64,000 bases of DNA from Microbacterium sp. SLBN-154 (GTDB taxonomy: Bacteria > Actinomycetota > Actinomycetes > Actinomycetales > Microbacteriaceae), in contig NZ_VFNL01000001.1 in assembly GCF_006715565.1 (NCBI RefSeq), positions 2,108,001 to 2,172,000 on the forward strand, in the 5' to 3' direction. How positions within the stretch are numbered: position 1 is the stretch's first letter; every line of letters begins with the position of its first letter. The position numbers and the translations under genes are program-made. The notes under the pieces were generated by a model. That model worked only from the letters and a program-made list of their open reading frames with translations, was not told the origin of the DNA and did no database searches. Of the stretch, positions 7,017-64,000 are shown piece after piece.

Positions 7017-7621
7017 CCGATCTGTCCTGCGCCCTGCCCTCCGTGCGTCCGCCGGTCGCGCCCGACGAACAGCCCGTCACGACGGACGGCGCGGCGTGCG
7101 CGCTGCCCTCCGCCGCGGTGCCGGGCCGCGCATGGCAGGGTCCCGGCCCGCAGGAGCGCTTCGAGATCCTCCGGCGCACGCGATCGGTCGCGATCGTCGG
7201 CGCCTCGGACAACCCGGCGCGGGCCAGCTTCTTCGTCGCGACCTACCTGCTGGGGAGTGCGCCGTACGACGTGTACTTCGTCAACCCGCGCGCCGACTCC
7301 ATCCTCGGACGGCCCGCTTACGCGTCGCTGGCGGATCTGCCGGTCACCCCCGACCTGGTCGACGTCTTCCGTCGCCACGACGACCTGCCGGGCGTCGCGG
7401 CCGAGGCGGTCGCTGCCGGGGCGAAGACCCTGTGGCTGCAGCTCGGCTCGTGGCACGAGGGCGCCGCCGCCATCGCCGAGGAGGCCGGACTGTCGGTCGT
7501 CATGGATCGATGCGTCAAGATCGAGCACGCGCGGTTCCACGGGGGACTCCACCTCGCGGGATTCGACACCGGGGTGATCAGCTCACGGCGTCAACTGCTC
7601 AGCCGACGCGCGGACCTGTAG
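7013..7621 (+). CDS. CoA-binding domain protein
   Basis: A 202-aa Rossmann-fold protein of the CoA_binding/YccU family. After a roughly 55-residue extension that contains the pentapeptide CALPS twice, the CoA-binding glycine motif SVAIVGASDNPAR begins. It continues with YFVNPRADSILGRPAYASLADLP and the typical AGAKTLWLQLG and VMDRCVKIEHARF segments, where the conserved Cys is present. The start overlaps the metY stop (ATGA), implying translational coupling. The function of the family is unsettled. Its TAG stop forms part of the -10 box of the next transcript. Confidence 0.85.
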   Translation: MTDLSCALPSVRPPVAPDEQPVTTDGAACALPSAAVPGRAWQGPGPQERFEILRRTRSVAIVGASDNPARASFFVATYLLGSAPYDVYFVNPRADSILGRPAYASLADLPVTPDLVDVFRRHDDLPGVAAEAVAAGAKTLWLQLGSWHEGAAAIAEEAGLSVVMDRCVKIEHARFHGGLHLAGFDTGVISSRRQLLSRRADL

Positions 7622-7624
7622 AAT
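7619..7624 (+). promoter_or_regulatory. -10 box TAGAAT of rpoZ, overlapping upstream stop codon
   Basis: TAGAAT is followed by exactly six bases and then ATG at 7631, the spacing expected when transcription starts on the A of a start codon. The first three bases are the TAG stop of the CoA-binding gene. Confidence 0.65.
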
Positions 7625-7705
7625 GGGCGGATGGCGCGGCTCGGCCGACCGCCCCGCGCCCGAGGACTTCTCCGCCGACATCCTTTCGAACCAGGAGGTT
7701 CAGCC

Positions 7706-7960
7706 ATGGCCGGAACCAACCAGGGCATCATCGAGCCCCCCATCGACAGCCTTCTCGAGAAGGTCGACTCGAAGTACCAGCTCGTCATCTACGCCGCACG
7801 TCGCGCGCGTCAGATCAACGACTACTACTCCGACCTGCACGAGGGGAACCTCTTCGACAACGTCGGTCCGCTCGTGGACTCCACGGTCGAGGACAAGCCG
7901 TTGACGATCGCCCTTCACGAGATCAACGAAGACAAGCTGCGCCTGCGCGCCGCCGAGTAA
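7706..7960 (+). CDS. rpoZ: RNA polymerase omega subunit
   Basis: Small RNA polymerase subunit that aids beta-prime folding and assembly. The 84-aa product contains [31 protein letters not shown] and the conserved [15 protein letters not shown]. The ATG at 7706 has a strong ribosome site AGGAGG at 7693-7698. However, an in-frame ATG at 7631 sits six bases after a TAGAAT -10 box and would give a leaderless product with 25 extra Arg-rich residues. I chose the internal start because it matches omega length in other bacteria; both could be used. Confidence 0.93.
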
Positions 7961-7977
7961 GTCGTTCTCGAGTCCCT

Positions 7978-8006
7978 GCCCGGGGTGGCTGTCGGCCACC
8001 CCGGGC
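7978..8006 (+). terminator. Strong hairpin after rpoZ
   Basis: A perfect 12-bp GC-rich stem (7978-7989 with 7995-8006) and a 5-base loop, 17 bases after the rpoZ stop and before metK. The T-tract is weak (atactt), as is common in actinobacteria. Confidence 0.8.
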
Positions 8007-8041
8007 ATACTTGTGCCGTCCCCGCGAGATCTGGAGCATCG

Positions 8042-9235
8042 ATGACCTCACTGCGTCTGTTCACGTCCGAATCCGTCACCGAGGGGCATCCCGACAAGAT
8101 CTGCGACCAGATCTCGGACAGCATCCTCGACGCGATCCTCGCCGAAGATCCGCACGGTCGGGTGGCCGTGGAGACCCTCGTGACGACGGGTCTCGTCCAT
8201 GTCGCCGGCGAGGTCTCCACGGCCGCCTACGTCGAGATCCCCGCGATCGTGCGCTCCGTCGTCAACCGCATCGGCTACACCTCCAGCGACACCGGCTTCG
8301 ACGGTGACTCGTGCGGAGTGAGCGTCTCGATCGGAGCGCAGTCCTCCGACATCGCCGCGGGCGTCGACAAGGCGTTCGAGCGGCGCGAGGGCGGATCGAT
8401 CGACCCGAACGACGAACAGGGCGCGGGCGACCAGGGCATCATGTTCGGCTACGCCACCACCGAGACCCCGCAGCTCATGCCGATGGCAGCGTGGACCGCG
8501 CACCGCATGGCCGAGCGCCTGGCGGCCGCGCGACGCGACGGCAGCCTTCCCTTCCTCCGCCCGGACGGCAAGACCCAGGTCACCCTGGGCTACGACGGCG
8601 CGGTACCCCGCACCGTCGAATCGGTGGTGCTGTCCACCCAGCATCACCCCGACATCTCCCAGAAGGCCCTGCGGGGCGCGGTGCGCGATGAGGTCATCGA
8701 ACCGGTGCTCGAGGCCACGGGGCTCGACGTGTCGGGTGTGAAGTTCTACATCAATCCGGCGGGACCCTTCGTCGTCGGCGGCCCGAAGGGCGACGCCGGT
8801 CTCACGGGGCGCAAGATCATCATCGACACCTACGGCGGCGCCGCCCGCCACGGGGGTGGAGCCTTCAGCGGGAAGGACCCGTCGAAGGTCGACCGCTCGG
8901 CGGCGTACGCGATGCGGTGGGTGGCCAAGAACGCCGTCGCCGCCGGGCTCGCCGACCGTCTCGAAGTGCAGGTCGCCTACGCGATCGGCAAGGCGAAGCC
9001 CGTGGGTCTGTACGTGGAGACGTTCGGTACCGGTCATGTGGCCGACGAGGTGATCACCGCCGCCATCCGCGAGGTGTTCGACCTGCGCCCGCGCGCCATC
9101 ATCCAGCAGCTCGAGCTCCTTCGTCCGATCTACGCGCAGACGGCCGCCTACGGCCACTTCGGCCGTGAGCTCCCCGATTTCACCTGGGAGCGCACCGACC
9201 GGGTCGACGACCTGCGCGCCGCCGCAGGCCTGTGA
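8042..9235 (+). CDS. metK: S-adenosylmethionine synthetase
   Basis: Makes S-adenosylmethionine from methionine and ATP. The 397-aa protein begins with [20 protein letters not shown] (methionine and ATP site) and has [12 protein letters not shown], the [20 protein letters not shown] phosphate-binding loop and [13 protein letters not shown] at 8033-8036 supports the ATG at 8042. A possible -10 CATACT (8006-8011) would give a leader of about 24 bases, too short for a SAM riboswitch. In mycobacteria coaBC lies between rpoZ and metK; here there is no room for it. Confidence 0.97.
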
Positions 9236-9266
9236 GCCGGGTTCATCCGGGAGGGGCTCCGCGCGC

Positions 9267-63017: not shown

Positions 63018-63030
63018 TCACCTCAGGTGA
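63018..63030. repeat. Inverted repeat TCACCT-c-AGGTGA
   Basis: Perfect 6-bp arms with a 1-base centre, 10 bases upstream of the ATG of the minus-strand gene ending at 63007. It may be an operator, though the AGGTGA arm is also near its ribosome site. Confidence 0.35.
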
Positions 63031-63120
63031 CGAGAGGTCGTTTGCCCGCGTCAGTCCGTGCTCGTCCTCGAAGCGTCCGAGCGCAGCCCGCTCGCTCCGC
63101 TCCGTCGCCAACAGCACGAC

Positions 63121-63297
63121 TCAGTGTCCTCCGATGGCGGAGCTTCCGCCGTGGCGGCGTTGGTCCGTCGGCGGCATGTACGGAACCGAAGGCGGCTCCG
63201 ACCCGCCTGTGCGTGCCGAGCGGGTCTCGTAGGTCTCAGCGGGAGGCCGGATCCATCCGACGACCCGTTGCCACAGTGAACGATTCGTCGAAGCCAT
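63121..63297 (-). CDS. Hypothetical small protein
   Basis: A 58-aa ORF beginning MASTNRSLWQRVVGWIRPPA and rich in Pro, Ser, Gly and Arg towards the end. It has no membrane segment. CAGGGA lies just before the ATG. It lies between two small unknown genes and diverges from the gene at 63407. Its base composition by codon position looks coding, but it may not be expressed. Confidence 0.45.
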   Translation of the reverse strand: MASTNRSLWQRVVGWIRPPAETYETRSARTGGSEPPSVPYMPPTDQRRHGGSSAIGGH

Positions 63298-63406
63298 GTC
63301 CCTGATCTTCCCACTACCCGCCCGAAGCCGGCGTATCACCCGGCCCGCTCCAGGGCTCTCCCTCGTGTGCGCACGAGTGCACGCTTACGCAGGGAAAGGC
63401 GACATC

Positions 63407-63640
63407 ATGGCGATCAACGACGACGCGCAGAACACCGGCGAGAAGGCATCGGGTCCCTTCGTGATGCTGGTCAACGCCGACGGCACCCCCTTCACCGGCT
63501 ACGCCGAGGACGGCGGCGGGATCGGCGGGCACCTGCTCGGTCAGGTCTGTCACAATCACGTCCTCACCGAGGTCTACGCCGACTTCGACGGCGAGGGGCA
63601 CCTCGCCGGCATGCACACCCACGACGTCGGCAGCTGCTGA
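63407..63640 (+). CDS. Hypothetical small His/Cys-rich protein
   Basis: A 77-aa soluble protein with FVMLVNADGTPFTGYAEDGG, then a His/Cys-rich end: VCHNHVLTEVY, GHLAG and MHTHDVGSC. The spacing CHNH...HTHDVGSC could hold a metal ion. AGGGAAAGG at 63391-63399 is a good ribosome site for the ATG at 63407. I recognise no family. Confidence 0.65.
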   Translation: MAINDDAQNTGEKASGPFVMLVNADGTPFTGYAEDGGGIGGHLLGQVCHNHVLTEVYADFDGEGHLAGMHTHDVGSC

Positions 63641-63658
63641 GCCACCGCCCCGCACCGC

Positions 63659-63664
63659 TACGGT
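63659..63664 (+). promoter_or_regulatory. -10 box TACGGT of the terminal membrane protein gene
   Basis: TACGGT, six bases, then GTG at 63671. Leaderless spacing. Confidence 0.55.
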
Positions 63665-63670
63665 GTAACG

Positions 63671-64000
63671 GTGCGGGAGATCATCCGGATGGGGCTTCGG
63701 CTCCTCGTCGCCCATTGGCCCGCGCTCCTGGCGTGGTACCTCGCGGGTTCGCTCGGGCGATACCTGTCGATCCAGCTGGCGGGATTCGTGGGCGGGTACA
63801 CCGCGCTCGGCGGCATCCTGCTTCTTCCGCTGGCGATCCTCGCCAAGCTCGTCAGCGTCGTCGCGATGTTCCTCGTCCTGAGGGACGGGATGCTGCGGCT
63901 GAACGCGATCGCACCGAACCCGGTGGATCGTGGCGAGCGCCTGCGCTCGTTCCGCGACGCGCTGCTGTCTGCGGTGCTGCCGTTCATCGCGGTCTACGCC
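63671..64000 (+). CDS. Membrane protein, 3' end cut by window
   Basis: The frame is open from GTG 63671 to the window end (110 codons seen). Two hydrophobic segments are visible (LVAHWPALLAWYLAGSLG and ALGGILLLPLAILAKLVSVV, continuing into AMFLVLRDGML), with a basic, charged stretch (DRGERLRSFRDALL) before a third. The pattern is of a polytopic membrane protein with an intracellular loop; the family cannot be named from this fragment. The -10 spacing fixes the start. Confidence 0.7.
   Translation, partial: MREIIRMGLRLLVAHWPALLAWYLAGSLGRYLSIQLAGFVGGYTALGGILLLPLAILAKLVSVVAMFLVLRDGMLRLNAIAPNPVDRGERLRSFRDALLSAVLPFIAVYA

Follow-up and report, generated by a model that had tools for sequence, protein, structure and literature searches.

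Introduction

Leaderless transcripts are well documented in actinobacteria. Zheng et al. (2011; PMC3160421), in the passages cited here, place the hexamer TAnnnT some 10 bases ahead of the start codon, predict roughly 20% of genes to be of this kind and detect them in 86 of 89 actinobacterial genomes, and the cited passages of Cortes et al. (2013; PMC3898074) report that 26% of the Mycobacterium tuberculosis genes with a primary transcription start site (TSS) are leaderless, their promoters having a TANNNT -10 box and no conserved -35 element. A second described system is the mycobacterial PafBC (RecA-NDp) promoter, given in the corresponding passages as tTGTCRgtg-8 nt-TannnT, at which PafBC replaces the -35 contact (PMC5656591, PMC8151990, PMC11804915). 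Here we compare with both a 64,000-nucleotide stretch of the genome of Microbacterium sp. SLBN-154 (the window; C1:2108001-2172000 of G000, a genome of one 3.57 Mb contig). A first-pass annotation had seen a TANNNT hexamer six or seven bases ahead of 19 start codons in this stretch and predicted leaderless mRNAs, adding that such transcripts were known in actinobacteria, which the literature bears out at a similar frequency.

We suggest, with a probability of about 0.85, that Microbacterium uses a leaderless -10 layout of which a repair-rich subset is under PafBC. Sigma-A-type -10 boxes would put the transcription start on the start codon, or at most one base away, and so give leaderless mRNAs, and two kinds of promoter would share this one layout: most with a -10 box only and no visible -35 element, and a smaller, repair-rich set that also carries the PafBC element.

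Materials and Methods

Genes were called with a purpose-written program that relies on nothing but codon usage and start type and is blind to the TANNNT motif. Its training sequence was the window together with twenty 20-kb stretches across the genome (464 kb), which gave 415 usable starts; a wider count also admitted in-frame starts close to the called one. N6 and N7 denote six or seven bases between the hexamer and the start codon, and a gene is called TA-led when TANNNT stands at either distance (N6/7). A first gene is one that is divergent or that follows a same-strand gap of at least 40 bases. The strict PafBC form used here, TGTCRGNG-N8-TANNNT, was tightened from the published consensus. 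Reversed-pattern controls across Microbacterium are summed control columns, and the control within the source genome is the set of other offset pairs. The polA set consists of the best 80 of 565 matches, named loci nearly all from Microbacteriaceae; the closest matches of the window's polA are from Microbacterium, at 71-83% identity.

Results

At the 415 motif-blind starts TANNNT stands at N6 in 37 cases and at N7 in 14, 51 in all, with about 1.5 at each other offset, and 200 dinucleotide shuffles averaged 1.85 and never exceeded 6. The first-pass annotation had named enrichment solely at N6-7 as the check on its proposal, and this is the pattern obtained. Internal in-frame ATG or GTG codons are preceded in this way in just 6 of 5965 cases. 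The last T of the box is required (34 TANNNT at N6 against 4 TANNNV), and boxes of the form VANNNT are also in excess at N6 (16, versus roughly 6 at other offsets). A Shine-Dalgarno core at -20..-5 was found for 4 of 67 TA-led hits and for 140 of 349 other genes (p 6e-9). The N6/7 start codons comprise 41 ATG, 26 GTG and no TTG, where the background expects 0.6 TTG, so that this last count says little. G occupies box position 3 at 30 of 43 N6 and 17 of 24 N7 promoters; an in-frame TAG stop was considered as its cause and rejected, the G being equally common at N7. No -35 element was seen in 66 aligned TA-led promoters, TTGACA at 16-18 bases doing no better than at control distances.

Conservation points the same way. 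In an orthologue comparison 69 of 79 retain TANNNT-N6/7 ahead of an in-frame start in the neighbourhood of the expected one, where 2.2 would be expected; polA orthologues are TA-led in 18 of 19 cases and rpoZ in 0 of 1, and the TA-led start of the orthologues of an ANTAR-domain regulator lies 5-10 codons from the expected place. The comparison holds no orthologue for the starts at 42371, 45220, 46283, 53316, 59591, 53233 and 60698, and 63671 was not queried. The earlier placing of a -10 box at a distance that puts +1 on the start codon is thus upheld by position-specific enrichment, by the scarcity of Shine-Dalgarno cores and by conservation in relatives, and leaderless mRNA is very probably the best reading of TANNNT-N6/7, as a prediction from sequence.

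With near in-frame starts admitted, 66 of the 415 genes are TA-led. They are found among divergent first genes (32/132), after same-strand gaps of at least 40 bases (23/128) and after gaps of 10-39 bases (8/49), and are few among overlapping or near-touching genes (3/106). First genes therefore stand at 55 of 260, or 21%, with about 6 expected by chance. The window itself is rich in them: its 32 first genes carry 14 hits and the 228 outside it carry 42 (Fisher p 0.002, by a wider search in which one gene may count twice), and it is from this richness that the impression of a default mode arises. Adding the VANNNT excess would lift the share of first genes to an estimated quarter or so, which agrees with the published ~20% for Actinobacteria and 26% for M. 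tuberculosis. Among the other genomes sampled, G004, of the same genus, has 33 of 109 first genes TA-led, G013 has 16 of 99 and G014 21 of 91; G015 has 13 of 112, where chance would give 4.9, and shows no peak at N6. The first-pass annotation had also held that operon-internal genes use 4-bp overlaps: such overlaps are indeed common, but most adjacent same-strand pairs lack one, as it joins 11 of 40 in the window and 56 of 283 over the full sample.

The strict PafBC form occurs at 28 sites in the genome, and its reversed pattern at one. At 22 of the 28 an ATG or GTG follows the box at N6 (15) or N7 (7), compared with none for the reversed pattern and a mean of 1.7 for other offset pairs. The fraction exceeds the 55 of 260 seen for first genes (p 2e-9), and the same contrast is seen in G004 (17/22, versus the first-gene figure given above) and G013 (13/22). 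Family models place repair or replication genes downstream of 15 of the 28 sites, 13 of these 15 at N6/7: radA, recQ, pcrA, xth, recA, uvrB, uvrA, rarA, holA, ligA, recG, a UvrD-type helicase gene, mfd, dnaX and sbcD, several of the matches having been made from the first 500 residues only and lying below the full-length cut-off. Six other heads are an ABC transporter, an MFS transporter, an OmdA-domain, a RibD_C, an Eis-like and a DUF427 gene. There was no match in the family library for the heads at L202, L203, L219, L223, L226 and L227, and that at L205 was not scanned. As a separate observation, the GTG frame at L205 runs into the beginning of the long frame that follows and is perhaps a leaderless short upstream frame.

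The window's only strict site is the -26 element TGTCGGAG (41967..41974, minus strand), which precedes the RibD_C-domain gene starting at 41946. That gene has the -10 box TATGCT (41953..41958, minus strand) at N6 to its ATG, and all four of its orthologues are TA-led, three with TGTC. A relaxed PafBC-like element, TGTCTGAT (46255..46262, plus strand), stands before an Fpg/Nei-type glycosylase gene, whose -10 box TAGAGT (46271..46276, plus strand) is at N6 to the ATG at 46283.

The genome also encodes a matching regulator. Two adjacent WYL genes at G000:C1:1995944-1997946 (L258:8944-10946) are PafB and PafC by match, corresponding to the two halves of the PafBC structure 6sj9 (E 1.3e-37 and 1.9e-31) and to chains of 7p5x, although NCBIfam gave no match for either protein. 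An FKBP-type isomerase gene lies before the pair and tatC after it, surroundings that we take to resemble the mycobacterial pafBC neighbourhood, and pafB itself starts with TAGGAT-N6-GTG. Three WYL-domain matches lie elsewhere in the genome. Pup ligase (PF03136) was found in none of the 13 Microbacterium genomes searched, the source genome included, but six of seven genomes from other families have it.

The element is widespread in the genus. Across 29 Microbacterium genomes 698 of 980 PafBC-type sites have a start codon at N6/7 (52%-80% per genome), whereas the reversed pattern gives 45 sites, 6 of them with a start codon. The same order or class contributes 17 further genomes, drawn from a phylum sample of 197 with the 179 labelled 'same phylum' alone left out of the sum; in these, 351 of 678 sites are at N6/7. 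The reversed pattern occurs there 53 times, including 10 versus 34 in G067 and 4 versus 8 in G017, and some of the sites in these 17 genomes are thus due to chance. In three genomes of the phylum sample (G160, G088 and G110), near-identical or identical PafBC-type leaderless sites are repeated within the genome, as if in a repeated gene family.

Six Microbacterium genomes (G006, G007, G009, G220, G223 and G226) have 51-93 sites each, against 13-33 (median 23) in the remaining 23. In a quick polA tree a single fork (SH-aLRT 100) unites these six with four named loci, M. testaceum StLB037 among them, and the fork holds no other genome for which sites were counted; the four named loci carry no motif count, and the count of label changes on the tree is thus 5. 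The PafBC-type element is two- to four-fold commoner in this M. testaceum clade. G007 has 63 N6/7 sites, of which 30 were retrieved and ten scanned. Two of the ten had no family match; among the others are genes for an MFS and an ABC transporter, a methyltransferase, a ribose isomerase, CopC, a DUF167 protein and an M4 peptidase.

The polA gene (33639..36278, plus strand) has a GTG start and is predicted to be leaderless, with a -10 box TAGGCT (33627..33632, plus strand) at N6 and, 8 bases before that box, a relaxed -26 element TGTCTCAC (33611..33618, plus strand). Since the latter is not TGTCRG, we term it PafBC-like and do not count polA of this genome as a member. TANNNT-N6/7 precedes the polA start in 80 of 80 loci, with GTG in 78 and ATG in 2. 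TGTC stands exactly 16 bases before the box in 59 of them (GTC in 69), a distance equal to that in the published PafBC (RecA-NDp) promoter, and at each of eight other distances tried in at most one; TGTCRG is found in 33 of these relatives and the full strict element in 18.

Divergent from polA, at an intergenic distance of 51 bases, lies a hotdog (4HBT) thioesterase gene (33153..33587, minus strand) with a predicted leader of about 60 bases. Its predicted -10 box is AGCCTA (33655..33660), that is, TAGGCT on the minus strand, within polA codons 6-8 (AAG CCT ACC). CCT makes up 5.3% of the genome's Pro codons, yet it is used in 61 of the 66 rows whose peptide is of KPT type (of 81 rows). AGCCTA is present in 72 of the 80 loci, all 72 of which have the divergent thioesterase gene. 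Five of the eight loci that lack it have no thioesterase match in the upstream DNA (at most 1 kb), one has the gene in another orientation and two have it divergent; one locus with the divergent gene and without AGCCTA, L061, keeps ACCCTA. The association has a p value of 9e-8, which is too small since the genomes are related. We infer that AGCCTA may well provide the thioesterase gene with its -10 box, in which case each of the two promoters would lie inside the transcribed part of the other gene. A single dyad site formed by the TAGGCT/AGCCTA inverted repeat was also considered and set aside, because the distance varies among the rows; AGCCTA tracks the divergent gene instead. A rare codon is thus kept over most of a bacterial family, probably since on the other strand it forms part of a neighbour's promoter.

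Of the 19 starts that the first-pass annotation had given a TANNNT hexamer at N6/7, 18 read back in the sequence, 15 at N6 and 3 at N7 (21093, 36355 and 53316), and the exception it had allowed, rpe, does have CATAAT at N6. The start positions themselves fared less evenly: 12 were matched by the motif-blind caller, and seven were called elsewhere or could not be called (7631, 14944, 21093, 40578, 41946, 53316 and 63671, the last leaving the window).

One of the seven, 7631, had been listed among the leaderless starts, and here the evidence points elsewhere. The ATG at 7706 has CCAGGAGG in front, is favoured by codon usage and gives 84 aa, the length annotated in a Microbacterium record, and the one relative compared is not TA-led; 7631 is probably not the rpoZ start. 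The TAGAAT before it (7619..7624, plus strand) may still be the rpoZ promoter, probably with a leader of about 75 bases. Two products are possible from the region 7619-7706, one from the ATG at 7631 and one from the ATG at 7706, which AGGAGG precedes.

The other boxes of the plus strand begin with CATAAT (13580..13585), the near -10 box at N6 to the GTG of rpe at 13592, for which the one orthologue is not TA-led. TACCCT (14932..14937) is at N6 to a GTG at 14944, with an ATG at 14941, and the one orthologue is TA-led at the same GTG. TAGACT (21080..21085) precedes the ATG at 21093 (named lgt earlier) by N7, and one of two orthologues is TA-led. The ANTAR-domain response regulator gene mentioned above (pdtaR in the first-pass annotation) has TAGGAT (31622..31627) at N6 to the GTG at 31634, and 14 of its 16 orthologues are TA-led. 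All 12 orthologues are TA-led both for the DUF885 gene, with TAGGCT (36342..36347) at N7 to the ATG at 36355, and for the GDSL gene, with TAGGGT (40566..40571) at N6 to the ATG at 40578. An MFS gene with TAACAT (39191..39196) at N6 to the GTG at 39203 has 7 of 10 orthologues TA-led, mostly a few codons off. TAGCAT (49066..49071) is at N6 to the ATG at 49078, and the one orthologue is not TA-led.

Among the genes without an orthologue in the comparison, TAGGCT (42359..42364), TAGGAT (45208..45213) and TAGGCT (59579..59584) are each at N6 to an ATG (at 42371, 45220 and 59591), and TAGGAT (53303..53308) is at N7 to the ATG at 53316, called pepA earlier. On the minus strand, TAGCAT (53240..53245) is at N6 to the ATG of a PAC2-family gene at 53233, with TGTC 15 rather than 16 bases upstream of the box, and TAGGGT (60705..60710) is at N6 to the GTG of an RDD-family gene at 60698. 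Finally, TACGGT (63659..63664, plus strand) stands at N6 to the GTG at 63671, the frame that leaves the window.

Discussion

Several points weigh against a leaderless layout with a PafBC-controlled subset. All starts rest on a crude caller, and the window's own polA element, TGTCTCAC, is not TGTCRG. The first-gene baseline against which the PafBC sites were set differs from them in kind, as leadered promoters without the element are invisible to it. The N7 GTG at L205 opens a frame of only 14 codons, so that 21 of the 22 start-adjacent sites are credible. At L203, L209 (recA), L218, L222 and L223 the next long frame begins 28-103 bases on, recA itself lying 103 bases from its box, and pcrA (L206) starts at N9. 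For uvrA, ligA, holA and recQ the match to the family profile sets in only after some 28-59 residues, which leaves room for a later start. Lastly, the signals of the glycosylase gene at 46283 are not conserved, being found in one of 30 loci examined, namely itself.

The first rival reading accepts the promoters and holds that many genes are translated from further downstream, with short leaders and an incidental ATG or GTG at N6/7. It seems to apply to rpoZ, and the long N-terminal stretches ahead of the profile in uvrA, ligA, holA and recQ speak for it. The enrichment, however, goes with start codons and all but disappears at internal ATG and GTG codons, and most TA-led starts lack a Shine-Dalgarno core. 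Moreover, the profiles of UvrB, RecG, XthA, RadA and SbcD begin at most 10 residues from the N6/7 start, and polA keeps its start 6 or 7 bases from the box in every locus of the set. We therefore regard downstream translation as unlikely to be the general case.

Slightly less probable still is that the TGTC element is served by another regulator sharing the site, PafBC being inactive here. The missing Pup ligase in the source genome and 12 congeners is in keeping with this idea, as are the three further WYL-domain matches. Against it, pafB and pafC lie side by side between the FKBP-type gene and tatC, the element fits the published tTGTCRgtg-8 nt-TannnT, and repair or replication genes head more than half of the sites. 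We favour PafBC; once activated, it would replace the -35 contact at TGTCRGNG promoters and would thereby switch on mRNAs that have no Shine-Dalgarno site.

That first genes in this organism are leaderless by default, as the first-pass annotation had claimed, is very improbable. The window, where nearly half of the first genes are hit, invites that conclusion, but the figures outside it and for the whole sample do not follow it, and 75 of the 205 other first genes have a Shine-Dalgarno core. A reading of the hexamers as chance matches or as Shine-Dalgarno-like AGG runs, and not as promoters, can hardly be credited: about half of the boxes look TAGG-like by eye, and an AGG 8 bases ahead resembles a weak ribosome site, but the final T is required, forms such as TAACAT, TACCCT and TATGCT occur too, shuffled sequences fall far short of the real count and no polA locus of the set lacks TANNNT.

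The transcript ends, the dependence on PafBC in this genus and initiation on a 5' AUG or GUG are inferred from these patterns. Beyond the layout itself, we consider it an even matter whether PafBC promoters are leaderless as a rule, PafBC has been kept without pupylation and the M. testaceum clade has expanded the element to non-repair genes. If this is true, the PafBC-type DNA-damage response in Microbacterium, and perhaps in Actinomycetes too, consists of mRNAs without 5' leaders, and leaderless initiation would be the route by which repair proteins are made. A reporter study in M. tuberculosis found that starvation and nitric oxide affect leaderless translation less than they affect Shine-Dalgarno translation. 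At the least, the genus now has a countable and testable set of predicted leaderless genes; tying leaderless initiation to one defined regulon makes the purpose of leaderless mRNAs addressable with one inducer and one deletion.

Our searches found no paper on leaderless mRNA in Microbacterium or Microbacteriaceae and, judged by title and abstract, none linking PafBC with leaderless mRNA or with Microbacterium. That PafBC promoters are mostly leaderless is apparently new, and may already be in print. The main text of PMC3898074 does not contain the phrase 'DNA damage', and hence draws no link to the regulon in those words.

Set beside the TA-led genes of Actinobacteria, as the cited passages describe them (PMC3160421), the signal here is the same, at 66 of 415 genes, and there is no essential difference; what is added is one more genome and conservation among orthologues. 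In M. tuberculosis leaderless transcripts are reported from TSS mapping in the passages cited (PMC3898074), whereas those of Microbacterium are predicted. The PafBC system differs from its mycobacterial counterpart in that Pup ligase was not found in the Microbacterium genomes searched and in that one clade's set of elements is two- to four-fold larger. The Microbacterium PafBC sites are mostly leaderless, by prediction, while the passages cited for the mycobacterial ones do not state their leader state. Common to the two, as far as those passages go, are a TGTCRG-type element, its fixed spacing to TAnnnT, the repair genes that follow and a genome that encodes PafB and PafC.

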